Source: Acinetobacter brisouii CIP 110357 (GTDB taxonomy: Bacteria; Pseudomonadota; Gammaproteobacteria; Pseudomonadales; Moraxellaceae). From it: a DNA stretch of 64,000 bases. The position numbers and the translations under genes are program-made. The notes beneath the pieces are model-generated. The model made no database searches and was not told the origin of the DNA. It saw only the letters and a program-made list of their open reading frames with translations. Position 1 is the stretch's first letter. The number at the start of each line of letters is the position of its first letter. Shown here piece by piece: positions 30,585 to 50,585 of this stretch. The DNA lies in the NCBI RefSeq assembly GCF_000488275.1, contig NZ_KI530762.1, positions 1,520,971 to 1,584,970 of the forward strand. The letters run 5' to 3'.

Positions 30585-30600
30585 TACTCCTTATGAGATA
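30585..30600. promoter_or_regulatory. Candidate 7-2-7 NarL-type site upstream of purU-folD-sox
   Basis: TACTCCTTATGAGATA reads as two inverted heptamers, TACTCCT and TATCTCA, with two bases between them. TACTCCT fits the TACYYMT consensus of NarL-family regulators fully. It lies about 156 bp before the purU start, and similar sites lie before dmm and tdm. A separate palindrome TTTCCTATCAGGAAA follows at 30612-30626. Confidence 0.5.
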
Positions 30601-30755
30601 CCCCACAAAAGTTTCCTATCAGGAAATAAAAATTCAAAATAATACTAGACGCGGTGTTTAATTTTTTATATAAATTACCTTGAAGAAAATATTTTTCCCA
30701 TGAAGAAATTAAAGGGGAATTTTCCTAAAGACCACATTGGCGAGGAAGCACCACC

Positions 30756-31625
30756 ATGGCACACAACCAAGTTGAGCAATTTGTATTAAAAATTAGTTGT
30801 CCTGCGGCATCTGGAATTGTTGCAGCGGTTTCGGGGTATTTGGCAAGTAATGGTTGCTATATCAGTGAGATGGCACAATTTGATGATGAAACTACAGGGC
30901 ATTTCTTTATGCGTGCCGTGTTCCGTTTCAATGCTGGCGTAGCTGGAGATATTGAACAGCTCAAAGCAAACTTTAATAGCGTGAGTGATGCATTTGAGAT
31001 GCAAGCCACTTTTTATAATCAAAATCAGCCTGTTAAGGTTTTGATTATGGTGAGTAAGTTTGACCACTGTCTACTGAACTTGCTGTATCGCTATCACAAA
31101 GGCGAGCTAGATTTTGAAATTACTGCAATTGTTTCCAACCATTTAGATTTGCGTGCAGTTGCCGAGCGTGAAGGGATTCGCTTTATCTACTTGCCTGTCA
31201 CGAAAGACAATAAAACACAGCAGGAACAAGAGCTGATCAAAATTGTCGATGAAACAGGCACTGAACTGGTCATTCTTGCACGCTATATGCAGATTTTGTC
31301 TAACGATCTGTGCAAGCAGTTATCAGGTCGTGCTATCAACATTCACCATTCATTCTTACCAGGTTTTAAAGGTGCAAAACCTTATCACCAAGCCTTTGAC
31401 CGTGGCGTGAAACTGATTGGTGCAACGGCGCACTTTGTGACCAGTGACCTGGATGAAGGTCCAATCATTGAGCAAGCCGTGCAACGCGTTGACCACGCCT
31501 ATATGCCTGAAGATTTGGTCTCTCTTGGTCGTGACACTGAAACCATCGCCCTGTCTAAAGCGGTGAAATACTTTGTCGAGCACCGTGTGTTCCTCAATGA
31601 CAATCGTACGGTGGTGTTCAAATGA
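30756..31625 (+). CDS. purU: Formyltetrahydrofolate deformylase
   Basis: A 289-residue protein: an ACT domain at about residues 1-85, then a formyltransferase-fold domain with [19 protein letters not shown] and a C-terminal Asp in SDLDEGP. It hydrolyses 10-formyl-THF to formate and free THF. Here it opens the operon purU-folD-soxBDAG; in methylamine users this activity releases one-carbon units as formate and regenerates THF. It overlaps folD by 4 bp. Confidence 0.94.
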
Positions 31626-32530
31626 GTTTACTGAGCCAATTTACTGCATCTGAAATTACCGTGATCGATGGTAAAGCCACCGCTGCGCAGGTACTTGAAG
31701 AAGTTAAACACGATGTTGCAGCTCTGCAACAGCAAGGTATTACACCTTGCCTCGCTGTGGTTTTGGTCGGTGAAGACCCCGCAAGTCAGGTCTATGTCCG
31801 CAATAAAGTCGAAAAAGCCCTGATGGTTGGCATTCGCTCACTGGAATTTCGTTTTCCTGCCGAACTTAGCCAAACGGAACTACTTGCCAAAATTGATGAA
31901 CTGAATGCTGATCAAAGCGTACATGGCATTTTGGTACAGCTTCCTTTGCCAAAACATATTGATGAAACTGCGGTTCTGGAACGGATTGACCCGAAAAAAG
32001 ACGTCGATGGTTTCCACAGTGAAAATGTCGGGGGGTTAAGTCAGGGGCGTGATGTGCTTACCCCTTGCACGCCAACAGGCTGTATCCGCCTGCTGAAAGA
32101 TACTTTAGGCGATTTGACTGGGCTGCACGCTGTTGTGGTTGGACGTTCCAATATTGTCGGAAAACCGATGGTAGCGTTGCTACTCAAAGAAAACTGCACC
32201 GTGACTGTGGTGCATTCAAAAAGTCAGGATTTGGCACAGCTTTGCCAGTTAGGAGACATCGTCGTAGCAGCCGTCGGACGTCCACGCATGATCAACGCAT
32301 CTTATTTAAAAACCAATGCGGTAGTGATTGATGTCGGGATTAACCGCATTCAGGAAAATGGCAAAAACCGTCTGGTCGGCGATGTGGACTATGACGATGT
32401 CCTGCCGATGGTCAGTGCCATTACGCCTGTGCCTGGTGGCGTTGGCCCAATGACCATTGCCTACCTAATGAAAAATACCGTACATGCCGCACAGTTGCAG
32501 CATGCACAAGCTCATTCAACTTCCGTTTAA
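31622..32530 (+). CDS. folD: Methylenetetrahydrofolate dehydrogenase/cyclohydrolase FolD
   Basis: A 302-residue protein with about 14 extra N-terminal residues compared with E. coli (288). YVRNK has the catalytic Lys (K62), GILVQLPLP is the substrate loop, and [10 protein letters not shown] is the NADP site. It converts 5,10-methylene-THF to 10-formyl-THF, the substrate of PurU. It may be a second, pathway-specific copy, since folD is normally a single housekeeping gene; the window does not show whether another exists. Confidence 0.94.
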
Positions 32531-32557
32531 GTCAATGCCTAGCGCTGTGGAGGACTC

Positions 32558-33796
32558 ATGCCATTTAGTCTACTGAAATATGGATTAAGTTCTGAATATC
32601 CTGTCGAAGTGGATTTACCTCCACCGACGACTCTGAAACCGCATTATGATGTGGTGATTATTGGTGGTGGTGGGCATGGTCTTGCGACAGCCTACTACCT
32701 GTCTAAATATCATGGTATTACCAATATTGCGGTTCTGGAAAAAGCCTATTTGGGTGGGGGCAATACTGCACGTAATACTGCCGTGATTCGCTCTAATTAC
32801 CTGACCTCCGAAGGCGTAGAATTTTATGCCGAATCGGTCAAATTATTTAAAAATCTCTCTAACGAATTTGATTTCAACATTATGTATTCTGAGCGTGGGC
32901 AGCTCACACTGGCACATACTGACTCGACTGTACGAGCCTTCCGCCAACGTGCAGAAGTCAACAAACACTTCGGTGGGCGTACCGAAATGCTGGATCGCCA
33001 GCAGATTAAAGAACTCGTACCTTGTCTGAATCTTGATCCTGCTCATTTGCCTGTATTGGCTGGACTTTGGCATATTGATGGTGCAACTGCACGTCACGAT
33101 GCCGTGGCTTGGGGGTATGCCAAAGAAGCCGCCAAACGCGGTGTAGAAATCCATCAACTCACTGAAGTTCAAGATCTGGTGATTGAGAACAATAAAATCA
33201 AAGCCATCAAAACCAATCGCGGTACAGTGCAATGTGGCTGTGCGGTTCAGGCGATTGCAGGGGCATCTTCGATTTTGATGGCAAAAGCCAAAATCCGCGC
33301 ACCAATTCAGACTTTCCCACTCCAAGCGATGGTTTCTCAGCCATTTAAACCATTCTTAACACCTTTGGTCAGTTCATCGGCTTTGCACTGTTATGTGCAA
33401 CAAACCAGTCGTGGCGAAATTGTGTTTGGTGGTGGTTCAGACCCCTATCCACTCTATAACACCCGCTCGACTTTGGATTTGAAAGAAAGCCTGCTCGCAC
33501 ATGCCATTGAAATGTTTCCTTTTATGGCCAATGTCAAACTCATGCGCCAATGGGCAGGCATTACCGATATGACGCCTGACTATAGTCCGATTATGGGTAA
33601 ATCCCCTGTTGACAATTACTACCTCGATGCTGGCTGGGGAACTTGGGGCTTTAAAGCCACGCCAATTTGCGGCAAAACCATGGCGGAACTGGTGGCGACA
33701 GGCAAAACTCCGAGCCTAATTAAACCGTTTGCACTAGAACGTTTCAGCACCTTTCAGCAAGTCAACGAAATGGGCGCAACTGCGGCGAGCCACTAA
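32558..33796 (+). CDS. soxB: Sarcosine oxidase beta / N-methylglutamate dehydrogenase subunit A-like
   Basis: A 412-residue FAD-dependent amine oxidase. The FAD-binding GGGGHG is at residues 36-41. H180 in DGATARHDAVAW matches the His that carries covalent FMN in heterotetrameric sarcosine oxidases. It oxidises the N-methyl group of sarcosine or a similar N-methyl amino acid to an imine. The symbol follows the sarcosine oxidase family; the orthologue in methylamine users is called mgdA. A good GGAGGAC site precedes the ATG. The order B-D-A-G is that of both systems. Confidence 0.88.
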   Translation: MPFSLLKYGLSSEYPVEVDLPPPTTLKPHYDVVIIGGGGHGLATAYYLSKYHGITNIAVLEKAYLGGGNTARNTAVIRSNYLTSEGVEFYAESVKLFKNLSNEFDFNIMYSERGQLTLAHTDSTVRAFRQRAEVNKHFGGRTEMLDRQQIKELVPCLNLDPAHLPVLAGLWHIDGATARHDAVAWGYAKEAAKRGVEIHQLTEVQDLVIENNKIKAIKTNRGTVQCGCAVQAIAGASSILMAKAKIRAPIQTFPLQAMVSQPFKPFLTPLVSSSALHCYVQQTSRGEIVFGGGSDPYPLYNTRSTLDLKESLLAHAIEMFPFMANVKLMRQWAGITDMTPDYSPIMGKSPVDNYYLDAGWGTWGFKATPICGKTMAELVATGKTPSLIKPFALERFSTFQQVNEMGATAASH

Positions 33797-33807
33797 AGGA
33801 GAATCTG

Positions 33808-34125
33808 ATGAAAATTATGCCTTGCCCACTCAATGGTCCACGCAATATCAGTGAATTTGTCTATGGTGGCGAACTCAAAGACATGCCTGACCAGAACCAC
33901 TGTAGCGACTATGAATGGGCAGATTATGTCTTTAACTGCGACAACATTGCAGGCATTGTTCGTGAATGGTGGATGCATGCTCCAAGCAGTTACTGGTTTA
34001 TTGCTGAACGCAACACCATCACCGATGAAATTTTAAAAACTTATGACCCGAAAGAACTGTTTCAGCAACGGGTCGAATTTAGTGAAAGCAGCCCATCTTC
34101 AGTTCAGAAGGAGTCTATGACATGA
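33808..34125 (+). CDS. soxD: Sarcosine oxidase delta / MgdB-like small subunit
   Basis: A 105-residue small subunit. In sarcosine oxidases this subunit binds zinc through three Cys and one His. Here C6 and H57 are present, but the second Cys position is N9 (CPLNGPRN) and the final one is S61 (HAPSS), so the canonical site is broken. The rest (EFVYGGE, REWWMHAPS, WFIAERNTITDEI) fits the family well. Sequences with this pattern may be the N-methylglutamate dehydrogenase type; I recall this only weakly. It overlaps soxA by 4 bp. Confidence 0.85.
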   Translation: MKIMPCPLNGPRNISEFVYGGELKDMPDQNHCSDYEWADYVFNCDNIAGIVREWWMHAPSSYWFIAERNTITDEILKTYDPKELFQQRVEFSESSPSSVQKESMT

Positions 34126-37022
34126 ACCGATTACCCCTCCCTTATGGGCTGTTAATCAATCGTCAACAGCCTGTTGAATTTGAATTTGACCACAGCCGTT
34201 TCCAAGGTTTTTCAGGTGACAGTATTGCCAGTGCGCTCGTTGCAAATCAGCGCTGGATTATGTCACGCTCATTTAAATACCATCGTCCACGCGCACCACT
34301 GACTATGGCTGGGCAAGATGCCAACACTTTGGTGCAACTGCCTGAAGAAGCCAATGTGCTTGCCGATACCACAGCAATCAAACCGAATATGCAAGTCACT
34401 GGGCAAAACTTTTCAGGTTCACTACTGAAAGACTCGGATGCCTTTTTGGGTAAATTTTCCAAGTTTATGCCTGTCGGGTTTTACTATCGCTCATTCTACA
34501 AACCGAAAGGGGTTTGGAAAATTTGGGAACCTATCATTCGTAAAAAGGCAGGTTTGGGGATTCTAGATCTGAACTTTCAGCCTGAATATTATGACAAAGC
34601 CTATTTGTTTACCGATGTTGCCATTATTGGTGCAGGCCCTGCGGGTTTGCAGGCAGCGCTGACCGCAGCAGAGTTAGGTGCAAAAGTTCTCCTGGTCGAG
34701 CAAGAGAAAATCTTGGGAGGTAGTCTGAACTATGCACGTCTGGATGCAGCAGGCAGACAAGCAGCTGAGCTCAAACAGCGTCTGGTCAGTGCCGTTGAAC
34801 AACACGCACAGATTACCGTACTGACTGAAGCGACCTGTAATGCATGGTTTACCGACCACTATTTGCCGATTATTCAAGGCAAACGCATGTACAAAGTCCG
34901 TGCAGCGCAATGTATTGTGGCGAGCGGCAGCTTCGATCAACCCGTGATTTTCCGTAACAATGACCTGCCTGGTGTCATTCTGTCTAGCGCAGCACAGCGC
35001 CTGATGAAACTCTATGCAGTGAAACCTGCGCAAACGGCAGTAGTGCTCACTGGGCATGATGATGGTTATTTGACAGCGCTGGATTTGGCTGAAGCAGGCG
35101 TGACCGTCAAAGCGGTGGTGGATATGCGCCCTATAGCATCTGATACCACTTTGTTGAGTGCGGTCAAAGCCAAAGGCATCGCCTGTCATTTGAGCAGCAC
35201 TGTGTATGAAGCCTTGCACAATAGCGGCATGCAGCACCTGACTGGCGTCGATATCCGCCGCATCGTGGCCGAAGGTCAGGTCGATGCTAACGCACAGAAA
35301 ATTGACTGCGATATACTGTGCATGTCAGCAGGCTACATGCCTGTGTATCAGTTGCTATGTCAGGCGGGTGGTAAGCTGAGCTACAATGATCAACAAGCGG
35401 CATTTAACATTTCAGGTTTGCCAAAAGGCTTGTCGATTACAGGTTCGGTCAATGGCATTCACCAGATTGAGCATGTTTTACAAGATGCCAGCCACATTGC
35501 CAAAGTTGCGGTTGCAGCTTTACGTGGTGAAGATGCTAGTCAAATTGCTGCACCAAACTTTAAAGAAAGCTCGATGAATTTTCCTTGGCCGATCTTTGAA
35601 CATCCTAAAGGCAAGGAATTTGTCGATTTCGACGAAGATCTACAAATTCGCGATATCGTCAATGCCACAAAGAGTGGTTATCGGGATGTGCAACTGGTCA
35701 AACGCTTTTCGACTGTGGGTATGGGACCATCTCAAGGACGTCATTCTGCACTGCCAACTGCACGTTTGGTGGCGAAATCCACCCAGCGCAGTATCAGCGA
35801 AACAGGTGTGACCACTGCCCGTCCTCCGTTTACTGCCGAGAAACTGGCTCATATTGCAGGGCGCGGCTTCGATCCATTTCGCCAGACCCCAATGCATGCT
35901 CGCCACCTCGCTGCGGGCGCAAAAATGATACCTGCGGGCAACTGGCAACGCCCTGCATTTTATGGCAATCCTGAACAACGACTGCAACACATTGCCCGTG
36001 AAGTGCTCAACGTGCATCAGAATGTCGGCATCATTGATGTATCTACGCTCGGTGGTTTGGATGTCCGTGGGCCAGACAGCGCTGAGTTCTTAAACCGTTT
36101 ATATACCTTCGGTTTTGCCAAACTTCCTGTTGGAAAAACCCGTTATGCGGTCATGGCAAATGAACATGGCGTGGTCATTGACGATGGTGTAGCAGCACGC
36201 CTGAGTGACAACCATTTTTATGTGACTGCAACCACCAGTGGTGTCGATCGGATTTATCAGCAAATGCTGAAATGGAATGCTCAATGGCGTCTCAGTGTCG
36301 ATATTGCCAATGTCACCACGGCTCTTGCCGCACTAAATATTGCAGGCCCCAACTCACGCCAAGTCATGCAAAAAGTCTGTCAGGATGTGGATTTATCCAA
36401 TGCTGCATTCCCTTATTTGGGTGTACGTACTGGCACGATTCATGGCATTCCTGTACGGATTTTACGGGTTGGTTTTGTCGGTGAACTGGGTTATGAAATC
36501 CATTTCCCTGCACGCTATGGCGAGTATATGTGGGATACCCTGATGCAGGCAGGTCAAGCATTTAACATGCAGCCATTTGGGGTGGAAAGCCAGCGTTTAC
36601 TGCGTCTTGAAAAAGGTCACATTATCATTAGCCAAGACACCGATGGCATGACGCATCCACAAGAAGTGGATTTGGGCTGGGCAGTTGCACGCAAAAAACC
36701 GTGGTTTGTCGGCAAACGCTCAATTGCGATTTTGGAAGCTCAGCCGTTGAAACGCAAACTGGTGGCCTTTGAGCTGGACAAACATCAGACTCAACCGCTT
36801 GAAGGACACATCGTCCTCAATGGTGGCAAGATCACAGGCAACATTACCTCTTGTGAATACTCACCAACGCTCGACAAGATTATCGGCTTGGCCTATGTCG
36901 GCATTGAACAAAGTGAAATCGGGCAAAACTTCCCGATTCGGGTAGAACATGGCGCAATGGTACATGCCAAAGTGGTCAAAACACCATTTTATGATCCAGA
37001 CAACCAACGGCAGGAGGTTTGA
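34122..37022 (+). CDS. soxA: Sarcosine oxidase alpha / MgdC-like subunit
   Basis: A 966-residue subunit. The N-terminal part carries a [2Fe-2S]-ferredoxin-like fold without Cys and the segment RSFKYHRPR. The dinucleotide motif GAGPAG is at 170-175. From about residue 600 a GcvT-type THF-binding domain follows, which captures formaldehyde as methylene-THF. The N-terminal run FYYRSFYKPKG and WEPIIRKKAGLG is a better match, as I recall, to N-methylglutamate dehydrogenase than to sarcosine oxidase. Physiological substrate therefore undecided. Confidence 0.88.
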   Translation: MNRLPLPYGLLINRQQPVEFEFDHSRFQGFSGDSIASALVANQRWIMSRSFKYHRPRAPLTMAGQDANTLVQLPEEANVLADTTAIKPNMQVTGQNFSGSLLKDSDAFLGKFSKFMPVGFYYRSFYKPKGVWKIWEPIIRKKAGLGILDLNFQPEYYDKAYLFTDVAIIGAGPAGLQAALTAAELGAKVLLVEQEKILGGSLNYARLDAAGRQAAELKQRLVSAVEQHAQITVLTEATCNAWFTDHYLPIIQGKRMYKVRAAQCIVASGSFDQPVIFRNNDLPGVILSSAAQRLMKLYAVKPAQTAVVLTGHDDGYLTALDLAEAGVTVKAVVDMRPIASDTTLLSAVKAKGIACHLSSTVYEALHNSGMQHLTGVDIRRIVAEGQVDANAQKIDCDILCMSAGYMPVYQLLCQAGGKLSYNDQQAAFNISGLPKGLSITGSVNGIHQIEHVLQDASHIAKVAVAALRGEDASQIAAPNFKESSMNFPWPIFEHPKGKEFVDFDEDLQIRDIVNATKSGYRDVQLVKRFSTVGMGPSQGRHSALPTARLVAKSTQRSISETGVTTARPPFTAEKLAHIAGRGFDPFRQTPMHARHLAAGAKMIPAGNWQRPAFYGNPEQRLQHIAREVLNVHQNVGIIDVSTLGGLDVRGPDSAEFLNRLYTFGFAKLPVGKTRYAVMANEHGVVIDDGVAARLSDNHFYVTATTSGVDRIYQQMLKWNAQWRLSVDIANVTTALAALNIAGPNSRQVMQKVCQDVDLSNAAFPYLGVRTGTIHGIPVRILRVGFVGELGYEIHFPARYGEYMWDTLMQAGQAFNMQPFGVESQRLLRLEKGHIIISQDTDGMTHPQEVDLGWAVARKKPWFVGKRSIAILEAQPLKRKLVAFELDKHQTQPLEGHIVLNGGKITGNITSCEYSPTLDKIIGLAYVGIEQSEIGQNFPIRVEHGAMVHAKVVKTPFYDPDNQRQEV

Positions 37023-37687
37023 TGATGCAAACTCTAGCAACTGAACGCAGCCCAATTGCACAGCAACCTTACAATACTTTTGGACGCAGCAAACGCGAAT
37101 TTTTAAGCGAAGCAACTTCACAGGCTGAACGAAAAATTCAGCACTGTGCGGTAGTTGACCTGACCAATTTGTCACGTGTGGGTTTTCGTGGCTTGGATAG
37201 CGCAGCCTACTTACACCAGTTTGGTTTTAGTCTGCCTGAACGTCCAAACCATGCCTTGGCACAGGTCGATGGCAGCTGGATTGCCCGCCTGTCGATGACA
37301 GAATATTTAGTTTTAGGCAGCCTGCATGATTTTGGTGAACGAATTACCCAGCTTGAAAATGACTGGCAACCCGATGAGCAATATGCCAACTATTTACTAC
37401 GACGTCAGGACAGTCACGCATGGATACAACTGACAGGTCAGTTCAATAGCGAAATTATGGCAAAACTCTGTGCGGTTGATTTATCGCCTGAAGTCTTTCC
37501 AGTAGGCAAAGTGGCACAAACCTCGGTGGCACGGATTAATGCAATCGTGATCAATGTCAGTGATCTACAAACGCAAAAACTGAATATTCTCTGTGACCGT
37601 GCCGCGGTGCTGTATTTGTGGCAAGTCCTGCAAGATGCCATTTCAGAATTCGGCGGCGAGATAAGCGGCATTGAAGGCTTAATTTAA
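37019..37687 (+). CDS. soxG: Sarcosine oxidase gamma / MgdD-like subunit
   Basis: A 222-residue subunit of the SoxG family (GcvT-related fold, without activity of its own). It shows DLTNLSRVGFRGLDSAAYL and QLTGQFNSEIMAK, matching the family. It completes the four-subunit enzyme and overlaps soxA by 4 bp. It is the last gene of the purU-folD-sox operon; a strong terminator follows about 150 bp later. Confidence 0.86.
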   Translation: MMMQTLATERSPIAQQPYNTFGRSKREFLSEATSQAERKIQHCAVVDLTNLSRVGFRGLDSAAYLHQFGFSLPERPNHALAQVDGSWIARLSMTEYLVLGSLHDFGERITQLENDWQPDEQYANYLLRRQDSHAWIQLTGQFNSEIMAKLCAVDLSPEVFPVGKVAQTSVARINAIVINVSDLQTQKLNILCDRAAVLYLWQVLQDAISEFGGEISGIEGLI

Positions 37688-38440
<753 letters not shown>

Positions 38441-41047: not shown

Positions 41048-42178
41048 TTAACCTTTTGCTGTTCTTTTCAGTTTTTGTGGATCATCAAACGGTAAAGTAT
41101 GCGTGATCGCATTGACTTCCAAACTGCCTTTAACCTGAATCTCGCGTCCTTGTACCGCATACGGGACATCAACACGGGCTAAAGCCACTGACTTCTTGCT
41201 GAGTGGTGAATACATACCACAAGTAATCACCCCGATTTGCGTATCGCCATCCCACAAGGTATCACCCATTTGCGCAGCTTGCTCACCTTCAAGCATCACC
41301 CCAAAAATCTTGATGCGCTCTTTACCTTGCAAGCGTTTATGTTCATAGCCACCGCGAAACTCACCCTTACTCGGTGAAACGGTAAAGTCAAGCCCAAGTT
41401 CCCATAAGCTATCGCCTGACTTGTCATTTTTAAATGGAAAATACTCAGAGTTATCATAAGGATAAAATAGCAAATAACTTTCAACCCGCAACCAGTCCAA
41501 GGTTACAAATGAACATGGAATAATGCCATACTTCCCACCTTTGTCTAAAATCGTATCCCAAATCAGCGGCGCATCCATTGCCTTGCAGAAAATTTCATAG
41601 CCACGCTCGCCCGTATAGCCTGTACGTGAAATCATCACGGGGCAACCAAACAGTTTGGTCTGAATATGGTGAAAATACGGCAAGTTGCGAATATCAGGGA
41701 TATATTCCGCTAGAAAATCCACTGCCAATGGCCCTTGTAATGATAAATCATGCAAGTCATCATCAAACAGCACCGCGACTTGGCGACCTGTTGCTGAACG
41801 GGTCAGCATTTCCAGGCCAATCCCAGTGCCGTGTACCACCATAAAGGCATTCGGCCCTGTACGGTAAATCACGCAGTCATCAACAAATTTTCCTTCTTCA
41901 TTGAGCATAGTGGCATACACCGACTTGCCTGGATAAAGCTTGGAAATGTCGCGTGAAGTGGCATATTCAAGCAAACTTTCTGCATGAGGCCCCACATAAT
42001 GCACTTTTTTCAAGCCTGAAACGTCCATCAAACCTGCTTTGGTTCGAATCGCCAGATAATGCTCGGCAGTATCGCTGGCATAGGTCCATGCCGTACCCAT
42101 ACCATTCCAGTCTTCTAAATTTGAGCCAAGCTGGCGGTGACGTTCTGCCAGTGCTGAAATACGCCATAAATTTGCCAT
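41048..42178 (-). CDS. dmmD: GcvT-like THF-dependent protein of the dimethylamine operon
   Basis: A 376-residue aminomethyltransferase-family (GcvT/DmdA-like) protein. It shows GLMDVSGLKKVHYVGP near the N-terminus and VMISRTGYTGERGYEIF, the signature of the folate-binding fold. In the operon it probably captures the formaldehyde made by the monooxygenase as methylene-THF. The ATG at 42178 is chosen because AAGGAA lies upstream. It is the last gene, 52 bp after the haem subunit gene. The symbol is tentative, from dmmDABC clusters. Confidence 0.82.
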   Translation of the reverse strand: MANLWRISALAERHRQLGSNLEDWNGMGTAWTYASDTAEHYLAIRTKAGLMDVSGLKKVHYVGPHAESLLEYATSRDISKLYPGKSVYATMLNEEGKFVDDCVIYRTGPNAFMVVHGTGIGLEMLTRSATGRQVAVLFDDDLHDLSLQGPLAVDFLAEYIPDIRNLPYFHHIQTKLFGCPVMISRTGYTGERGYEIFCKAMDAPLIWDTILDKGGKYGIIPCSFVTLDWLRVESYLLFYPYDNSEYFPFKNDKSGDSLWELGLDFTVSPSKGEFRGGYEHKRLQGKERIKIFGVMLEGEQAAQMGDTLWDGDTQIGVITCGMYSPLSKKSVALARVDVPYAVQGREIQVKGSLEVNAITHTLPFDDPQKLKRTAKG

Positions 42179-42230
42179 AAGTACTTTTCCTTCATTTTGT
42201 ATCAATATCAATTCATTGTTAAATCGTGGT

Positions 42231-43244
42231 TTATTCTTGGTCGAACTGACTCAGCCACTGCACCAACGGTTCGCGGTAACGAGTAATGCCTTTGTAATCG
42301 GCAATCGACTCAGGCAAATCCCGAATCACCCGATGCAGGCGTTTTGCCCATGCGGGATTGGTGACCAGATCATTCAGGCTAATCAGATAAGTGCGGATGC
42401 TAAATAACAGCGCGTTGCTGCGTGCAAGGCGTGGCATCATTTGCAGCTCAACCCGTAAATGCACCAACTCACCTGCATTGTCCTTGGTCACTAAACCACG
42501 CTCATGCCCCCACAAGTGGTAAGTTTCCGAAGAGGTGTCCATACGCGGGTTAATGGTCATGGTCCAGTTGAGACGGCGATACGGATTCCCGACCTGAATG
42601 TTGAGCAAAAATTTCAGCGCCCGTTCAAACACACCTGCGTCATGTGCCAGTTTCGGTACGGGCGCATGCCACTGTTTAAAGCTCATGCCTGCATCAAAGT
42701 TCAGTGACCAGTCCGCAGGCCCTGTAATCATGCCTGCATCCATAAACAGATCGCCTTCACGCTGATCTAGCAAGGCAATATCTCCTTGCAACTGGCGTGA
42801 GATAAACTCAAATGCGGGTAGCGGCAGGCTTGAGTCATCACCAAACTGAAAATGCACATCGATATTCATCGGGCGGTTGATCCAGTGCCACGCCTTGCCC
42901 TGCCGTTCCAAGTGAAAATGTTCAGGATAATCTGCCGACAAATGCAACATTGCCATTTCCAGAAAATCCCACGCTGCCTGTTGCATATGTGGCAACACAA
43001 TGCAGCGTTTCGGGTCATTTTTCAGGGTCAAGGCACGCTCATTCACCTCGGTCAGGTAATGCTCGTCAATGTCAAACCAGTGTTCAAAGATCGTTCCTGG
43101 TTTAGATAATGCAGGCTCGATATTCACCGAATACATGTAACTGTCTTCAGGAAACGGAAATGGAAAACGTGCAATGGCTTTGGCACTGTTGTGATAATGA
43201 AACTGATCACGCATATTTTCCACGGGGTTAAATTGTACGGTCAT
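42231..43244 (-). CDS. dmmC: Dimethylamine monooxygenase haem subunit (DUF3445/HODM family)
   Basis: A 337-residue protein of the haem-dependent oxidative N-demethylase family (DUF3445). The segments FPFPFPEDSYMYSVNIEP and RVELQMMPRLARSNALLFSIRTYL are typical. It is the catalytic oxygenase part that demethylates dimethylamine with O2 and NADPH. The ATG at 43244 is preferred because AGGAG precedes it. Subunit letters differ between published dmm clusters, so the symbol is provisional. Confidence 0.85.
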   Translation of the reverse strand: MTVQFNPVENMRDQFHYHNSAKAIARFPFPFPEDSYMYSVNIEPALSKPGTIFEHWFDIDEHYLTEVNERALTLKNDPKRCIVLPHMQQAAWDFLEMAMLHLSADYPEHFHLERQGKAWHWINRPMNIDVHFQFGDDSSLPLPAFEFISRQLQGDIALLDQREGDLFMDAGMITGPADWSLNFDAGMSFKQWHAPVPKLAHDAGVFERALKFLLNIQVGNPYRRLNWTMTINPRMDTSSETYHLWGHERGLVTKDNAGELVHLRVELQMMPRLARSNALLFSIRTYLISLNDLVTNPAWAKRLHRVIRDLPESIADYKGITRYREPLVQWLSQFDQE

Positions 43245-43254
43245 GGCAGTTCTC

Positions 43255-44196
43255 CTATAGCTCAAGCTCAATACGACAGCCCTGTTTGCCTCGTGACACG
43301 CATGGCATCAACAATTGCTCACGTTCCTGTGGGTTTAAATAATGGTCATGATGCTCAACATCACCTGTATATTGGGTCGCACACTGTCCGCACACGCCAC
43401 CACGACATAAACTGGTCACGGGAATCTCGTGTTTTTCCAAGGCTTCAAGCAGGCTGTAATCACTCGGAACTTCGATTTCCTGTTGGCTTTGAGTGAGATA
43501 GGCTGTAAATGCTGCACCTGCCGCAGGCGCTGCAAAAGCTTCGGCATGAACGCGCTGCTTTGACCAGCCCAATGTTTGCGCTGCATCTTGTACCGCCTGA
43601 GTCAGACGTTCTGGGCCACAGACATAAACATGGCTGTTTAAACTTTGTTGCTGCAACAACTGCATCACATCCAAACGGCGCGCAGTTTTTGCAGAATAAA
43701 TATGCACCTGCTCAGGAAATAACTCGGTCAACAGTGTTTCATAGGCATTACTGATTTGATCGCGGCAGGCGTAGTGCAGCTCAAAAGCTTGACCTGTATG
43801 CATCAGCTCGCGGATATGTGCCAAAAATGGCGTGATCCCGATGCCACCCGCAATAAACACATGCTTGTGTGCCTGTGAATGCAGGGCAAATAAATTCAAC
43901 GGCGCGGAGATATTCAACACATCGCCAATCATGACCTGTTCATGTAAAAAGCGAGAGCCTCCACGCGAGTCATCTTGCAGGCGCACCGCGATTTTGTAGT
44001 AATCATCGTGTGCGGGGTCATTGGTCAGTGAATAGGCATTACGCAATATCCGATCTGGCAAAGGTAACTGCACCACCACATGGCTGCCAGAAGAAAATGC
44101 AGGTAAAGGCTGATCCAGCGCCTCTAAAGTAAATTCACGAATCAATGGTGTGACTTGCTGAATATCGCGCACACGCACAGGAATTAATATAGACAT
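43255..44196 (-). CDS. dmmB: Dimethylamine monooxygenase reductase subunit
   Basis: A 313-residue phthalate-dioxygenase-reductase-type protein. The FMN-binding NAYSLTND (residues about 71-78), an NAD(P) site at AGGIGITPFL, and a C-terminal plant-type [2Fe-2S] cluster with CRGGVCGQC are all present; the last ligand is in LMPCVSR. It takes electrons from NAD(P)H to the haem subunit. Its start overlaps the end of the small subunit gene by 13 bp. Confidence 0.9.
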   Translation of the reverse strand: MSILIPVRVRDIQQVTPLIREFTLEALDQPLPAFSSGSHVVVQLPLPDRILRNAYSLTNDPAHDDYYKIAVRLQDDSRGGSRFLHEQVMIGDVLNISAPLNLFALHSQAHKHVFIAGGIGITPFLAHIRELMHTGQAFELHYACRDQISNAYETLLTELFPEQVHIYSAKTARRLDVMQLLQQQSLNSHVYVCGPERLTQAVQDAAQTLGWSKQRVHAEAFAAPAAGAAFTAYLTQSQQEIEVPSDYSLLEALEKHEIPVTSLCRGGVCGQCATQYTGDVEHHDHYLNPQEREQLLMPCVSRGKQGCRIELEL

Positions 44197-44693
44197 ACGC
44201 CCTCCGCTTGCATCGGTTGATCAGGGTTGGCACATACCCCCATATACGCACCCAAACGCTCGGAAAAATGAGTGCGAATCAGCAAATACACACCGCAATG
44301 CTCGCAACTGCAAAATTCTTCGGCAGTCGTGGTTTGTGTTTCACCGCAATGTACGCAGTAAACTTTTTTGAGTTCAGGCTGGGTTCGTACCTGTTGGATT
44401 TCATCTTTCATCAAGCCTTGTGCCATCAAGCTTTGCGTGACTTGCCATAAAAAGATTTCATCGCCACACAGCACCACATGTAGGCCTGCATGTGCCTGTT
44501 GCAACTGGGCTGTGAGTTCATCTGAAAATGCCTCTGAAGTTGCAAGCAATGTCGGAAATGCTGCAAACTGTTCAGCCAGATGCCGTGCTTCTAATGTATT
44601 GGCTTGCTGTAAAATCAACAGATATTGCCCGTGTACAGGTTTGAGTTCCTGTGCCTGCCGATAACTCGGAGTGCTTTGCATTACCTCTTGCAT
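44184..44693 (-). CDS. dmmA: Dimethylamine monooxygenase small subunit, DmmA family
   Basis: A 169-residue protein. The N-terminal about 110 residues look like a half-Rossmann fold; the C-terminus carries a zinc ribbon or rubredoxin-like four-Cys site (CVHCGE, then CSCEHCG). The DmmA family name is from memory. It is the first gene of the operon dmmA-B-C-D (as read leftward). GGAG lies 8 bp before the ATG. Confidence 0.78.
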   Translation of the reverse strand: MQEVMQSTPSYRQAQELKPVHGQYLLILQQANTLEARHLAEQFAAFPTLLATSEAFSDELTAQLQQAHAGLHVVLCGDEIFLWQVTQSLMAQGLMKDEIQQVRTQPELKKVYCVHCGETQTTTAEEFCSCEHCGVYLLIRTHFSERLGAYMGVCANPDQPMQAEGVCLY

Positions 44694-44772
44694 GGCAGTT
44701 ACTCCAGTAAATAAATTAATATAATCAAATATTTAAATTATTTAATTCATTCAATCAATTCCCTTTAAAACA

Positions 44773-44788
44773 TACCTCTAAGGGGGTA
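44773..44788. promoter_or_regulatory. Candidate 7-2-7 NarL-type site upstream of dmm
   Basis: TACCTCTAAGGGGGTA: inverted heptamers TACCTCT and TACCCCC with two central bases. TACCTCT fits TACYYMT fully. It is about 80 bp before the dmmA start. Confidence 0.6.
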
Positions 44789-45088: not shown

Positions 45089-45177
45089 GTTCTGCACAAG
45101 CAAATATCAAGGATAATTACATACAACGAATTAGTTTTTACCAATTAACTTGAGTCAATATCAAATTGATAAAAACA

Positions 45178-45361
45178 ATAAGATACATGGAAACGTCAGT
45201 TGCATGTCTGAGGTCAGGAGTATATTTAAAAAATGCTGTTTTTCAATACATTAAAACAGTGATGGTATTTGACCGAGTTTGCGACTGACAGATGGTTTTG
45301 CCTACTTTTCCCAAAAGAAAAGTAGGTCGAACCGAAGGTTGATGCTGAAATATGAGTCAAA
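45178..45361 (+). repeat. 184-bp direct repeat, copy B, with structured core
   Basis: Pairs with copy A (40790-40973). Core 45195-45326: long stem, linker AGATGGTTTTG (45290-45300), short hairpin CCTACTTTTC/GAAAAGTAGG (45301-45326). Confidence 0.8.
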
Positions 45362-45432
45362 TACATCATACTCCATCATCACTATGCAATAACTTTCAAT
45401 ATCCTAAGCATAAGTTTACAGAGACACTTAAC

Positions 45433-46800
45433 CTACCCCACTTTTTTCTGCGGCACTTCTGGCGTATCTGTCAGGTAAGCTTCAAGCGAATCATCAAGGG
45501 CATCCAGCCACGGCGTATGATGCGGTGCTGCCAACGTGCCTGTAATCGCTGAACGATAAATATGATCACGGAAAGTCATGATGTCTTCTTTTTTATGTTT
45601 TTTCCATTCAAGGAAAATTAAACGCATGGCTTCAATATCAAAAGTTGGATAATCGGTGGCTTCTATCAGCTCCAGAATATAATCGCCCTGAAACTTATAC
45701 ATTTGTGCAGCGTCAGTCAGGGTCTTTTCCTCTTCATGCCATGCTAAAGTATGTGCCTGCATTTCTGATAAACTAGGCAAAGCCATACGGTTTAAAATAA
45801 TATCGCGCACATACCATGCCTGCGCATCAAACATATTGAAGGTATACCATTGGTCTTGCATGCCCAAATAAAACAGTTTCGGATTTTTTTCCCAAACTAC
45901 GCCTTTATACAAACCCAGTGGATACAATCGGTTATCGGTTTTCAAACGAATGGACTCTGCCATAAACGGGAAATGATGCAGATAACCTGTACATAAAATA
46001 ATGGCATCAACTTCGGCACTTGTACCATCAGCAAAATAAGCATGCGTTTGATCTACACGTAATAATTTCTGACGTTCTGACCAGTTTTTTGGCCATTTAT
46101 AACCCATCGGGCTATTACGGTAACAACTAATAATCTGTTTTGCGCCATATTTGTAGCATTGTGAACCGATGTCTTCGGCAGAATAGCTACTGCCCACGAC
46201 CAATACGGTTTTATCTTTAAATTCCAAAGCATCTCTAAAGTCATGTGCATGTAAGATGCGCCCGCCAAAACTTTTGAAACCTTCATATTCTGGGACTTTT
46301 GGCGTTGAAAAGTGCCCGCTGGCGACCACGACATAATCAAAGATTTCGGTATACACTACATCTTGATTATGGTCATGCACACTCACTGCAAACTGCTGAG
46401 TCTGTTCATTAAACTCAATATGACGCACGGCACTGTTAAAACGTACATAACGGCGTACATTGGCTTTTTCGACTCGCCCTTTAATATAATCCCAAAGCAC
46501 TGCACGTGGAGGATATGAGCCAATCGGTTTGCCAAAGTGTTCATCAAAACTATAATCAGCAAACTCCAGAGCTTCTTTCGGGCCATTTGACCACAGGTAA
46601 CGGTACATACTGCCATGCACAGGTTCACCATTTTCATCGATCCCTGTGCGCCATGTATAGTTCCATAGCCCCCCCCAATCTGCCTGTTTTTCAAAACAAA
46701 CGATTTCAGGAATATCTGCGCCTTTGGCTTGAGCAGACTGAAATGCTCTTAATTGCGCCATCCCACTTGGCCCTGCACCTATAATTGCAACTCGCGTCAT
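45433..46800 (-). CDS. tmm: Trimethylamine monooxygenase (flavin-containing)
   Basis: A 455-residue class B flavin monooxygenase. The FAD motif GAGPSG is at residues 8-13. The FMO signature [11 protein letters not shown] is at 178-188, and the NADPH motif with [12 protein letters not shown] is at 201-212, which is typical of bacterial Tmm. It oxidises trimethylamine to TMAO with NADPH and O2. Other N- or S-containing substrates are possible for this family. Context (tdm, dmm, sox) strongly supports trimethylamine. It is transcribed alone, upstream of the dmm region. Confidence 0.9.
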
Positions 46801-46887
46801 AGCTTTATCCCCATGTGATTTTATTAAAAGAGTTAAAGTGTAGAAACACTATGCAATTAACATAGGACGAAGTCTGTGATCGTGAAA

Positions 46888-46903
46888 TTCCTAAGATGGA
46901 GTA
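46888..46903. promoter_or_regulatory. Weak 7-2-7 site upstream of tmm
   Basis: On the minus strand TACTCCATCTTAGGAA: one heptamer (TACTCCA) is near consensus and the other (TTCCTAA) is poor. About 88 bp upstream of tmm. It would not stand without the stronger sites at dmm, tdm and purU. Confidence 0.3.
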
Positions 46904-46945
46904 ACACAAATGGGATACCGTGAAATAACGCTTAAATTTTGCAAT

Positions 46946-46970
46946 AAAAAACCTGTCTAAAAAGACAGGT
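46946..46970 (-). terminator. Minus-strand terminator after the SDR remnant
   Basis: ACCTGTCT and AGACAGGT pair around AAAA; on the minus strand the stem is followed by TTTTT. It lies just after the SDR fragment and about 150 bp before tmm. Confidence 0.8.
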
Positions 46971-46974
46971 TCAA

Positions 46975-47164
46975 TCAAAAAATTTGCGCCATTGCAATGC
47001 CAATCAGTTGCTGACTGGACTCACGTGAAGCAACATCAACAACACTTTTGCTCACCTCAAGCCCAGCTTCACTGAGTATTTTGGCTGTGGCTTGAACATT
47101 GTCGAGTTTTAAATCAGCAAGTACGATATGTTTACCTGTACTGAGACGTCGGGCAAATGAATTT
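46975..47164 (-). pseudogene. Remnant of a short-chain dehydrogenase
   Basis: About 62 codons in one frame, beginning after a stop codon with NSFARRLSTGKHIVLADLK and ending LIGIAMAQIF before TGA. This looks like a piece of an SDR after the Rossmann glycine motif, cut at both ends: no start codon or GxxxGxG remains, and no catalytic YxxxK. It keeps a stretch recognisable from common Acinetobacter-type SDRs. It indicates past deletion next to the methylamine genes. Confidence 0.65.
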
Positions 47165-47202
47165 GATTAATCCAAACATTGCTCATCAACAAAACAGGCC
47201 CG

Positions 47203-47700
47203 TTATATCATCGACTTAAGAACATTATCTTTCACAATAAAGTGATGAAATAAAGCTGCACAGGCATGCAATCCGACAAGTGAAACAAATACGTTCCCCA
47301 ACACTTGATGAATATCACCTAAATAAAAATCACCATATAAACTTTCAATGACATATACATTTTGCCCCAATAGTGAATAACTATCCGCAATACTCGACAA
47401 GGCAAGATATCCTGAAACAGGCACAATCATGAGCAACGCATATAAAAGCACTTTGACTGTTTTAAATAGAAAATTTTGTAGTTTATTGATGATTTCATTT
47501 TTTGGAAAATCTTTATGTAACAGTAGGAAAGCGATACATCGCAAACAAAATAAAACAAATACAGTTCCGCCAGAAAGAAGATGAATTGTTCCAAGTTGAG
47601 GGTCTTTTAATGGGTTCCCACTGGTAATATAAGCTGTCGCAACAGCAATCAAGGTAATCCAGTGAATAGCCATCATAGTTCTAGGATATTTTTTAATCAT
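47203..47700 (-). CDS. Cytochrome b561 family membrane protein
   Basis: A 165-residue protein with four hydrophobic segments and histidines placed as haem ligands (AIHWITL near the N-terminus, GLHACAALFHHF near the C-terminus). These proteins pass electrons across or within the inner membrane. The partner and role are unknown. It is downstream of the PAS/two-component genes, 120 bp away, and may or may not be co-transcribed with them. Confidence 0.85.
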   Translation of the reverse strand: MIKKYPRTMMAIHWITLIAVATAYITSGNPLKDPQLGTIHLLSGGTVFVLFCLRCIAFLLLHKDFPKNEIINKLQNFLFKTVKVLLYALLMIVPVSGYLALSSIADSYSLLGQNVYVIESLYGDFYLGDIHQVLGNVFVSLVGLHACAALFHHFIVKDNVLKSMI

Positions 47701-47820
47701 GGTGATTTCTTAAATGCAACATTTGTAGTTGGATTAAATCACGGGCAATATCCGAATAACATTCGCTTTAATAAAAAATACACAAATTAAAGGCATATCA
47801 GCTTAATTCTTAAGGGTTTC

Positions 47821-48594
47821 TTAGGATTGAACTGGTTGTGAACGCCAAATAATTCCCTCAACTGCCAAAATCATATCGCTCTCTGAGTAAACGCCCCAAC
47901 CAATGTCCTGTACCCACACCACACGCTCTCCATCGGGCAATATTCGATAGATCACATTGAATAACTCTTTCTGATTCAGTGCATCTTGTACCGCAGACCA
48001 CACTGAAGGTGCATCTTCAGGGTGAATCATTTGTCCATAACGTGGCGTATTGAGTAATTCTGCAGGTGTATAGCCTGTCACATCGAAACAGCCATCACTG
48101 ATGTATTCCATGGTCCAGTCAAAATCATTGCGGGAACGGTACAACATCATCGGCAAACGCTTGATCAGGTCATTGAGACTACGCTGCTGTGCCGATTGTA
48201 GATATTGTCGTTTAATTTTTTCAGTCTGATCAGACAAAAGCAGACACCAGAAATGCTGCTGACTATCGGGCTGACTCAGCAAATAATTTGCCGAGAGCTC
48301 AAACCAGCGTAAGTTTTGCTGGGCATCCATCAGGCGGATGCGACAGCTTTGAGTCAACTGTGACGAGCTGAGCAGGCTTTTGAGTTGATAAACATCTTCG
48401 GGGTACAGCCATTCGGTCAAACCCTGCCCATCAGTGTGGCTAAATTGCTGCCAGATGATATTACTTTTATAGATATTCAGGTACTGATCAACAATCAGGA
48501 CTACTTCGGCAAAACAGTCAAATACAGGCGACCAATACGTTTGTAGTAGTTGCAACGGATAAACTTGGGCGGGACGACGAAACAGTTTCAGCAT
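47821..48594 (-). CDS. PAS-domain protein without output domain
   Basis: A 257-residue soluble protein with two PAS-type regions: about residues 20-120 (weaker) and about 140-250 (YISDGCFDVTGYTPAELL, typical PAS fold with PAC). No kinase, GGDEF, EAL or helix-turn-helix was found. The ATG at 48594 follows GAGGTG. The gene is 7 bp downstream of the response regulator and on the same strand, so it is likely an accessory sensor of the same system. Confidence 0.8.
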   Translation of the reverse strand: MLKLFRRPAQVYPLQLLQTYWSPVFDCFAEVVLIVDQYLNIYKSNIIWQQFSHTDGQGLTEWLYPEDVYQLKSLLSSSQLTQSCRIRLMDAQQNLRWFELSANYLLSQPDSQQHFWCLLLSDQTEKIKRQYLQSAQQRSLNDLIKRLPMMLYRSRNDFDWTMEYISDGCFDVTGYTPAELLNTPRYGQMIHPEDAPSVWSAVQDALNQKELFNVIYRILPDGERVVWVQDIGWGVYSESDMILAVEGIIWRSQPVQS

Positions 48595-48601
48595 AGTCAC
48601 C

Positions 48602-49282
48602 TCAGCTCCGCAATGATTTGAGATGTTGATGCGCCCACACCGACAACTCCAAACGTGAATGTACATTCAGTTTGCGCAGCAGGCTTTTGACGTAGACTTT
48701 GACCGTACCATCACTAATGCCGAGTTCACGCGCGATCAGTTTATTGTTCAGCCCTTTCGCAATCAGCAACAAGGTTTCTTTTTCTCTTGCGGTCATATCC
48801 GCGAGATCTTGCTGTTCTTGCTGATCGATTTCCCAAGATTCAGTTTCACTGAGCTGAGGCTGCACACGGCGCACTTGTCGCGCCAGAATATTTACACCTT
48901 GCCCATGTAAAATGATCTGTCCATCCAAGACATCATGCAGCTTTTGTAAAATCACTTCAGGCAATGTGTCTTTGGGCAAAAAACCATTTGCTCCCAGTTG
49001 AATCGCATCAATCACCACCTGCTCATCTTCACAAGCCGTTAAAATAATCACTTTTAACTCCTGATCACTCTGGCGAATATGCTTTAAAATCTCCAAACCT
49101 GACTCATTTGGCATTTGCAGATCGAGCAGTAGCACATCGGGATATTGCTCGGGTAAATCCTGCAAAAAATCTGCACCTGACGCATATTCGGCAAGTACAA
49201 CATAGCCTTGTTCCTGCCGAATAATATCGGCAACACCACGGCGAAATAGTGCATGATCATCGACAATACTGACTTTACACAT
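48602..49282 (-). CDS. NarL/FixJ-family response regulator
   Basis: About 226 residues from the chosen start. The receiver domain has phosphorylation Asp at about 54-56 (LLLDLQMP) and the C-terminal LuxR-type helix-turn-helix contains LIAKGLNNKLIARELGISDGTVKVYVKSLLRKL. NarL-family proteins bind inverted heptamers, as seen in front of the nearby amine operons. The ATG at 49282 is chosen because AGAGGA is at the right distance; an earlier ATG (49288) is too close. It lies downstream of the kinase gene and is likely phosphorylated by it. Confidence 0.9.
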   Translation of the reverse strand: MCKVSIVDDHALFRRGVADIIRQEQGYVVLAEYASGADFLQDLPEQYPDVLLLDLQMPNESGLEILKHIRQSDQELKVIILTACEDEQVVIDAIQLGANGFLPKDTLPEVILQKLHDVLDGQIILHGQGVNILARQVRRVQPQLSETESWEIDQQEQQDLADMTAREKETLLLIAKGLNNKLIARELGISDGTVKVYVKSLLRKLNVHSRLELSVWAHQHLKSLRS

Positions 49283-49294
49283 GGGCATATTCCT

Positions 49295-50470
49295 CTAATG
49301 TTGTTCTAAATGCAGTATGACGCAGGTGCCTTGCGGTGAATTGGCAACAAAACGTAGTTCTGCACCAATGCGTTCCGCCCGCTCCTGCATGATTTCCAGA
49401 CCAAAACTGTCACTGCGTTTGTTCTTTAACTGAATGCCACGTCCGTTGTCGCAAATACAGATTTGCAATGCTCCTGAAACCAGATATTCAATGCGTACCT
49501 GCGCGCTTGAAGCATGTGAATGTCGCACGACATTGCTCAGGCTTTCCCGAATAATGTAGAGCAGCTGCATGGCATATTTGGCACTGACGTTCAGATGTGC
49601 TACACGATTGTCCAGTTCAAAGGAAATGCTGGACTGATGTGCAAATTCATCCATGACTTTTTTTAGTGCCGAAGCAAAATCCAGTTCTTGATAGGCCAAA
49701 CGTGAAGCCGTGATCAATTCACGCGTTTGCTGATAGGCATAATGGGTATAACTGGCAAGATCTTCACTCAGTGGTAACAGTGCGCTATAACTCGGCTGAT
49801 TTTTACACAGGCTATGCAGTTGTGCCGACTTCAGGCGTAAAAAACCCAGTACCTGTGCAATACTGTCATGCAGTTCTGCAGCAAATTCACGGCGCTCTTT
49901 GAGTAAAATTGCCTGCCGTTTTTGTTGCTGTTCTATCCAGTACTGAAAGCCTTGTTGCAAGGCATCGTCAAGTTGTTGTAAATGCGGCTGGAGGCTGCTT
50001 TCTATCGCATTGGTCTGTTGTACATACAAACGCCACACCACCATTTCTTGTCCAAGTAACAACAAGCGCGCCTGATGGTTCTGAATCTGTAGCAAATTCT
50101 CAACTTGCGACTGTGCATAGTAGGTCTGATTTAACAGCACAGACTGGATCTGGTTTAAATCTTGTCGTTCAAGTTGTGTACTTTGGGCATGGTAAATAAA
50201 ACATTCCTGTGTAAATGGATAGCACAACACAAAGCACAGTTTTGGTACATGTTGCATTGCAAAAGTGCTGTCGAGTTGTTGTTGCAGATCATGCAATAGC
50301 TCAGGCAATTGTTCATTAGGCTGCTCAACACGGGCAATATTCAACATCAGTCTGAGCAATATCACCTCAAATTGTGCGGCCAAAAGCTGCTGTTGCAGCG
50401 AGGTTTCTGCTACATCTACACCGATTCGACGCTTTTGCCATACCTGCGACAAAGACTGCCAAACTTTCAT
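49295..50470 (-). CDS. NarX-like cytosolic sensor histidine kinase (HisKA_3)
   Basis: A 391-residue kinase. The H-box ELHDSIAQ (HisKA_3) is near residue 195 and the HATPase box is near CDNGRGIQL. No transmembrane segment or periplasmic loop is visible, unlike NarX, so it senses an internal signal. The N-terminal about 180 residues are helical and Gln/Leu rich with no named domain. Divergent from tdm, it shares a 230-bp spacer that includes a 7-2-7 site. The ATG at 50470 is preferred (GGAAC site). Confidence 0.85.
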   Translation of the reverse strand: MKVWQSLSQVWQKRRIGVDVAETSLQQQLLAAQFEVILLRLMLNIARVEQPNEQLPELLHDLQQQLDSTFAMQHVPKLCFVLCYPFTQECFIYHAQSTQLERQDLNQIQSVLLNQTYYAQSQVENLLQIQNHQARLLLLGQEMVVWRLYVQQTNAIESSLQPHLQQLDDALQQGFQYWIEQQQKRQAILLKERREFAAELHDSIAQVLGFLRLKSAQLHSLCKNQPSYSALLPLSEDLASYTHYAYQQTRELITASRLAYQELDFASALKKVMDEFAHQSSISFELDNRVAHLNVSAKYAMQLLYIIRESLSNVVRHSHASSAQVRIEYLVSGALQICICDNGRGIQLKNKRSDSFGLEIMQERAERIGAELRFVANSPQGTCVILHLEQH

Positions 50471-50569
50471 GGTCGTTCCGTATCGTATTGCCCAATCCAC
50501 TGCATTTTTGCCCCATTTTATTCTTCATAGTTATAAATTTTGAGCATTATTCATGCCAAAATCCGTTTT

Positions 50570-50585
50570 TACCTCATTGTGAGTA
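50570..50585. promoter_or_regulatory. Candidate 7-2-7 NarL-type site between the kinase gene and tdm
   Basis: TACCTCATTGTGAGTA: inverted heptamers TACCTCA and TACTCAC with two central bases. About 100 bp from the kinase gene and 116 bp from tdm, so it could control both. Confidence 0.6.

Follow-up and report, generated by a model that had tools for sequence, protein, structure and literature searches.

A proposed NarL-type regulon for methylated-amine catabolism in Acinetobacter brisouii

Trimethylamine is a fishy-smelling amine. Control of its catabolism was described earlier for a marine Roseobacter, with the AraC-type regulator TmaR, and a 2026 paper names two amine regulators of Ruegeria pomeroyi, TmaR of the AraC family and TmoR of the GntR family; the main text of this paper holds no match to LuxR, two-component or Acinetobacter (PMC13390433). 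Escherichia coli NarL uses 7-2-7 sites in tandem for activation, one of which abuts the -35 element; at ogt, they lie at -44.5 and -77.5, with one next to the -35, and at yeaR one NarL site lies just upstream of the -35 (PMC7419079). Here, we describe a locus in which a NarL-type regulator, a kinase and a PAS protein are encoded beside the amine genes tmm, tdm and dmmABCD. It lies in a stretch of 64,000 nucleotides from Acinetobacter brisouii CIP 110357 (contig NZ_KI530762.1, positions 1,520,971 to 1,584,970), hereafter the window, and all coordinates count from its first letter.

The regulator encoded beside tdm quite probably acts with a soluble NarQ-like kinase and a tandem-PAS protein to switch on tmm, dmmABCD and tdm through a tandem operator. 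The evidence, which is read from DNA and protein sequence, consists of the operator, its promoter register, its conservation, its co-occurrence with the kinase and regulator, the gene order and a gene fusion. The proposed targets are tmm, for trimethylamine monooxygenase (45433..46800, minus strand; NCBIfam NF058570 at 810 bits, above the cut-off), dmmABCD, comprising the dimethylamine monooxygenase genes and a gene for a GcvT-like protein (41048..44693, minus strand; assigned with Pfam), and tdm, for trimethylamine N-oxide demethylase (50701..53049, plus strand; NCBIfam NF053776 at 1060 bits, just below the cut-off of 1100). Together with two ammonium transporter genes, tdm occupies 50701-56123 on the plus strand, and the kinase, regulator and PAS genes run from 50500 to 47821 on the minus strand.

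Tandem operators of the dmm, tdm and tmm promoters

A preliminary description of the window had proposed a single NarL-family regulon from four near-palindromic 16-mers, of which the one upstream of tmm was considered weak and the one upstream of purU-folD-sox strong. All four are present where they were placed, at 44773 (TACCTCTAAGGGGGTA), 50570 (TACCTCATTGTGAGTA), 30585 (TACTCCTTATGAGATA) and 46888 (TTCCTAAGATGGAGTA), and they match 13, 12, 12 and 11, respectively, of the 14 letters of TACYYMT-N2-AKRRGTA. Their distance from a start codon, given as about 80-160 bp, was measured at about 70 to 171 bp and is roughly right. The regulon has strong support for dmm, tdm/kinase and tmm, whose sites are conserved, are recovered by held-out profiles and track the kinase-regulator pair, whose regulator has a NarL-like DNA-binding domain. 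It is not supported for purU-folD-sox, and the ranking is inverted, the tmm site being real and the purU site unsupported.

A lone 7-2-7 match carries little information, since the bare consensus with at most two mismatches has 245 matches in the 3.15-Mb genome and a reversed control has 344. A genome scan with single sites, which had been suggested as a check of the regulon, was therefore rejected; it returned random matches with no enrichment over this control. At the level of sequence, specificity resides in the tandem arrangement and not in single 7-2-7 sites. Seven places in the window reach at least 12 of 14 letters; three are the dmm, tdm and purU sites, and the remaining four lie within coding open reading frames. 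It could be argued that the similarity arose by chance and was chosen post hoc from an AT-rich window, as the unenriched bare consensus and the purU site, which behaves as chance plus recent ancestry, would suggest. Detection by held-out profiles, the association across genera and the common promoter register render this hardly credible, and for dmm, tdm and tmm it is refuted by the profile searches of the own genome and of 175 genomes given below.

Each of the three promoters contains two palindromes. Upstream of dmm, the first palindrome TACCCCCTTAGAGGTA (44773..44788, minus strand) is followed at an offset of 15 bp by a half-conserved one (44758..44773, minus strand), whose right half AGGGAAT is conserved. 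Upstream of tdm, TACCTCATTGTGAGTA (50570..50585, plus strand) is likewise followed after 15 bp by a second site (50585..50600, plus strand), which contains a conserved GRGAAATTG / GGGCAATTG block. At tmm the offset is 14 bp; the upstream palindrome (46902..46917, minus strand) has a conserved TA..C half, and the second, TACTCCATCTTAGGAA (46888..46903, minus strand), is the site that had been called weak. With the operator as reference for the alignment, dmm, tdm and tmm share one column at which the second palindrome's right half ends.

These loci were compared with those of 18 other tdm-bearing Acinetobacter genomes and with two sox loci taken from tdm-less genomes. All three operator sites, of dmm, tdm/kinase and tmm, are retained in the 18 other species (17 with a readable tmm promoter). 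Upstream of dmmA, the best site matches at least 12 of 14 letters in 19/19 genomes (12-14 in the relatives), and is found at -93 to -97 in 17 genomes and at about -256/-259 in G077/G076. The best site upstream of the kinase gene reaches at least 11 letters in 19/19 genomes and at least 12 in 16 (11-13 in the relatives); in G107, G132 and G085 it is the second palindrome. For tmm, 17 of the 18 readable genomes have at least 11 letters and G134 scores 10 (10-12 in the relatives). In the alignments, the operators appear as conserved islands amid diverged flanking DNA. Because they are conserved across Acinetobacter species with diverged surroundings and are uniquely recovered by profiles from other species, the dmm, tdm/kinase and tmm sites are, as judged from sequence, genuine conserved operator elements.

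Two profiles were built from 12 other species, R1 from 24 dmm and tdm operators and R2 from 12 tmm operators. Before R1 training, automatic tdm picks of the second palindrome in G107, G132, G085 and G018 were moved by hand to the upstream palindrome, and the E-values are rough, as calibration was shortened. On the own genome, R1 found the dmm operator (E 4.7e-6) and the tdm/kinase operator (E 5.3e-4), with the next match at 1.57, and R2 gave a single match, tmm, at E 1.4e-4 and nothing else up to E 10. Full-length Tdm is encoded by 19 of 175 Acinetobacter genomes, including this one, and the kinase (E<1e-100) by the same 19; kinase matches in another four genomes are no more than distant (E 6e-18 to 9e-24). 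An R1 scan of the 175 genomes, in which stricter filters lost weak matches, yielded 34 matches at E<=0.01, two in each of 17 genomes, every one of which encodes the kinase. These comprise 24 training sites and 10 sites from five genomes outside the training set. Both sites of G076 are weaker under R1 (0.017 and 0.033), and its tdm/kinase site was recovered in a separate, smaller profile search; G077 has no R1 match at 0.05 and its tdm site scores 15.7 bits in the smaller search.

The operator also has a consistent position relative to the predicted promoters. Over 52 aligned promoters, the top pooled -35/-10 pair starts at column 33 with a 17-bp spacer (score 2.91, next 0.91), and its -35 begins right where the right half of the second palindrome ends. 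The same pair ranks first for tdm alone and for tmm alone. The count of 52 leaves out dmmA, tdm and tmm of G076 and dmmA of G077, for which the automatic pick missed the site, and the unreadable tmm promoter of G077. The predicted promoters are TTGATT (44758-44753), 17 bp and TAAATA (44735-44730) for dmm (44730..44758, minus strand), TTGTGA-17-GATATT for tdm (50600..50628, plus strand) and TTTCAC-17-TATGTT for tmm (46859..46887, minus strand). Operator centres would then lie at about -43 and -58 relative to transcript starts predicted near 44723 (dmm), 50635 (tdm) and 46852 (tmm), which is the register expected where NarL activates from a site next to the -35. A single base separates the dmm site of G134, TACCCCTAAAGAGGTA, from TACCCCTAAAGGGGTA, a test site for NarL binding and co-crystals (PMC4549865).

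The purU-folD-sox promoter

The purU-folD-sox genes (30756-37687, plus strand) had been assigned to the regulon on the basis of the site at 30585..30600 (plus strand), which is found in 5 of 18 readable purU promoters, all from close relatives. Recent gain of this site could in principle have brought the genes into the regulon in the clade of this strain. Half-site letters are indeed unchanged in 5/5 close genomes, with variation confined to the spacer, and a weak overlapping site can be seen by eye at offset 14. However, 49 of 285 windows of the purU promoter are as invariant as the site, R1 does not match it, and the purU promoter has a different conserved operator, common to purU promoters that lack the 30585 site, all of which makes such a gain rather unlikely.

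Repeated TTTCCT-N3-AGGAAA palindromes and a TAGAC...TATATAAATT block between 30600 and 30730 are conserved in purU promoters of the genus, and the palindrome set also occurs in two genomes without tdm. On this sequence evidence, purU-folD-sox is not supported as a member and would lie outside the regulon. An RNA element upstream of purU was also considered and rejected, as no Rfam family reached its gathering score between 28000 and 54000 (best E 0.13).

The regulatory genes and their operators in other genera

The presence in the window of a NarL-type regulator beside tdm, as described earlier, was borne out. The protein of 228 amino acids (48602..49288, minus strand), which we propose to bind the operator, has a receiver domain (Pfam Response_reg, PF00072, E 4.6e-29) and a LuxR-type helix-turn-helix (HTH) domain (GerE, PF00196, E 1.5e-18), the architecture of the NarL/FixJ type. 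Its closest solved relative is E. coli NarL (1a04, E 2.4e-36), and its best NCBIfam family is NarL NF007935, at 184.8 bits and under the cut-off of 250. D56, which we take to be the phospho-acceptor aspartate, and D10 and D11 are invariant in 35 sequences. The HTH segment reads TVKVYVK in 33/35 regulators, and the counterpart in NarL is TVKVHVK, whose lysines and valine presumably contact DNA.

The kinase (49295..50500, minus strand) is a NarQ-like HisKA_3 histidine kinase of 401 amino acids, as judged from Pfam, NCBIfam, hydropathy and a model with fold search, and is probably soluble. Its C-terminal part resembles NarQ, and the scores for NarQ (166 bits) and NarX (118.8 bits) are below the respective cut-offs of 553 and 578. 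No stretch over its 401 amino acids is hydrophobic enough for a membrane helix (top 19-residue hydropathy 1.45). These scores and the lack of a membrane stretch set the kinase apart from the known kind of nitrate sensor. A sequence search matched its N-terminal half to no solved relative, and fold-search matches, which have low whole-chain TM (template modelling) values, are informative for the catalytic part alone.

The third gene (47821..48666, minus strand, true start probably near 48594) encodes a tandem-PAS protein, the proposed sensor partner. Pfam detects PAS_3 in its second half, and its model resembles tandem PAS proteins, with low confidence for residues 1-32. Foldseek matches to AHR/HIF were discarded as a ligand clue, as they indicate a tandem PAS fold and nothing on the ligand. 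The best indication that PAS protein and regulator act together is a gene fusion: in eight Pseudomonas/Paucimonas dmm-tmm loci (L144, L146, L147, L148, L150, L156, L158, L184), one protein that joins the same HTH to the same PAS domain replaces the kinase-regulator-PAS set. All eight fused proteins contain GerE and PAS_3, none has a receiver domain, and their loci have no kinase match. In all 8 loci, the fused gene and dmmA diverge, and the DNA that separates them contains a site of the kind TACCCCTTTTGGCATA or TACGCCTTTGGGAGTA (top scores 10-12 of 14, with a combined p of 2.5e-5); in L150 alone, the site is at chance (p 0.47).

The distribution of the operator outside Acinetobacter was assessed in the best 80 of 584 confirmed Tmm matches. 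Of these loci, 24 carry the kinase, regulator, PAS and tdm genes together, 8 in Acinetobacter and 16 in other genera such as Neptuniibacter, Methylophaga, Amphritea, Marinobacterium, Neptunomonas, Marinomonas, Billgrantia and Pseudomonas. Another 45 are without kinase and regulator, including 12 from Acinetobacter with tmm alone. The comparison group without the pair consisted of 44 loci with neither gene at a tblastn threshold of 1e-8, with L112 outside the count (its contig also lacks the pair, which its genome, apparently G012, has on another contig); the intermediate loci L159, L160 and L169 were placed in neither group, the eight fused-regulator loci were handled separately, and the tmm region of L175, whose gene starts at the contig edge, was mis-cut to 4729 bases. 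In the 16 loci from other genera with the pair, sites with at least 12 of 14 letters occur upstream of the kinase in 8/16, of tmm in 3/16 and of dmmA in 4/11, with combined p values of 1.5e-7, 0.003 and 0.002, respectively, against first-order Markov sequences. The 44 loci without the pair have such sites in 1/44 for tmm, 0/15 for tdm and 0/10 for dmmA, with combined p near 1. The loci are kin to one another and the p values are thus too small, but the contrast between the groups is still clear: beyond Acinetobacter, enrichment of the palindrome goes with the kinase-regulator genes, and loci that lack them have it at chance level. R2, which was run on 75 of the 80 loci with the five from training species omitted, found tmm upstream sites outside Acinetobacter at E<=0.01 in L119, L122, L126, L127 and L132, four of which have the kinase. 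A likely kinase relative is encoded elsewhere in the genome of L138, from the group without the pair (E 3.4e-49).

The twelve Acinetobacter loci L129, L131, L133-L137, L140, L142, L145, L151 and L171 have a lone tmm homologue (72-75% identical). They have no tdm, dmm or regulator in the locus and no operator above chance, and the substrate of these homologues may differ.

The operators could be real and be bound by another regulator, either of the NarL/LuxR family or unlinked, while the adjacent pair controls something else. Eight further proteins of the own genome match all or part of the regulator at 25-36% identity, and the operator of L119 belongs to a genome in which no clear relative of the kinase is found. 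On the other hand, the best-scoring other match is just 33% identical, operator presence tracks the kinase-regulator pair inside and outside the genus, and the operator also sits in the regulator's own divergent promoter region. Binding by another protein is therefore distinctly unlikely.

The regulatory operon itself has a candidate promoter of another type. A sigma-54-type -24/-12 element, TGGCATGAATAATGCT, lies at 50543..50558 (minus strand), upstream of the kinase-regulator-PAS operon. Elements of the TGGCAY type with GG-N10-GC reach at least 9 of 12 upstream of the kinase in 19/19 Acinetobacter loci (17 at 10 or more) and in 14/16 of the other loci, and in these loci the regions upstream of tmm, dmmA, the regulator and the PAS genes score close to chance; a transcript start would be expected near 50532. 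NtrC-type sites by the kinase promoter score 6-9 of 12 in Acinetobacter, none of them clear; uncalibrated raw scores are 8-10 of 12 in 15/16 other loci and 7 in L120. The sigma-54-like promoter suggests that the regulatory genes are under nitrogen control, in which case the amount of regulator would probably depend on nitrogen status. The element also bears on the direction of control, as the tdm/kinase site lies 11 bp upstream of it and a bound protein could interfere. A regulator that is mainly a repressor or autoregulator at these sites would fit this arrangement, and TmaR of Ruegeria mildly represses tmm while it activates other genes, according to its description (PMC13390433). However, all three targets are in the register expected for activation, with site 2 abutting the predicted -35, and a primarily repressing role appears unlikely.

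Other neighbouring genes were noted. A cytochrome b561 gene (47203-47700) separates the PAS gene from tmm here and in the close relatives G123, G091 and G118, and no match to it was found in the loci of the more distant Acinetobacter species compared. Further away, a LysR regulator and an OprD porin accompany a gene cluster of the aromatic ring-hydroxylating dioxygenase and meta-cleavage type (14642-28260).

Proposed control and relation to known systems

From these features, we infer the following course of binding, activation, signalling and nitrogen control. The soluble NarQ-like kinase would phosphorylate the NarL-type regulator, which would then bind the tandem operator as two adjacent dimers. 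The operator can be written as TACCYC-N4-GRGGTA, followed 14-15 bp on by a weaker palindrome ending in GRGAAT. With the operator placed immediately before the -35 of tmm, dmmABCD and tdm, the regulator would activate each of the three from positions near -43 and -58. The tandem-PAS protein would most likely provide the signal, which would be an amine or a product of the pathway. A fuller picture, quite possible and still tentative, is a three-protein system for sensing methylated amines: the tandem-PAS protein has trimethylamine or a product of the pathway as its ligand and gates the soluble NarQ-like kinase and NarL-like regulator, nitrogen control of the regulatory genes is exerted through sigma-54, and the tandem 7-2-7 operator couples the switching of tmm, tdm and dmm. 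In the Pseudomonas version, a single receiver-less HTH-PAS protein would read a closely similar operator.

Several observations weigh against activation of the three targets by this regulator. The direction of control is deduced from operator position alone, and for dmm taken by itself other -35/-10 pairs outscore the pooled one. The species are related, so combined p values overstate the case. Within the genus, 4 of 156 kinase-less genomes have one weak R1 match each (E 0.010-0.036), and G012 has a third, unexplained match (0.044). Outside it, R1 reaches E<=0.01 solely in L120, four loci (L130, L141, L152, L166) score only 9-10 within 220 bp of the kinase, and 7/11 dmmA and 13/16 tmm regions score below 12. 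Finally, L119, from a Neptuniibacter metagenome-assembled genome, has a good tmm operator at 3166-3199, and the best kinase match in its genome, an assembly of unstated completeness, is at E 1e-13.

Each part of the proposed system is of a known kind; what looks new is their combination, and with it the regulon. No NarL-type regulator of the amine genes is reported in the open literature searched, most subscription papers lying outside that scope. A specific regulator, an operator and testable bases can now be named for trimethylamine catabolism, in which a nitrate-type regulator would be re-used for amines. The regulatory set adjoins tmm and tdm in gammaproteobacteria such as Acinetobacter, Marinobacterium, Neptuniibacter and Methylophaga. 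The system also provides a natural comparison between a kinase-regulator-PAS set and a one-component fusion that use a similar DNA signal.

Among described systems, NarX/NarQ-NarL/NarP of E. coli is alike in regulator architecture and HTH, in the C-terminus of the HisKA_3 kinase and in the 7-2-7 operator. In contrast to that system, the regulator and kinase here fall under the NCBIfam cut-offs for NarL and NarQ, a hydropathy scan finds no membrane-spanning stretch in the kinase, a tandem-PAS gene is added and the targets belong to amine catabolism. DesK/VraS/DevS-type HisKA_3 kinases are alike in the catalytic part, whereas their partner genes differ and the N-terminal half of the present kinase matched no solved relative. 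The ogt promoter of E. coli likewise has tandem sites with one abutting the -35, but its centres are 33 bp apart and the palindromes here are spaced by 14-15 bp (PMC7419079). No AraC- or GntR-type domain was found in the 49 distinct proteins from 58 open reading frames of at least 120 amino acids in the window. TmaR and TmoR of Ruegeria belong to unrelated protein families and work with no kinase, and they share with the system proposed here that linked regulators coordinately control tmm, tdm and dmm (PMC13390433).

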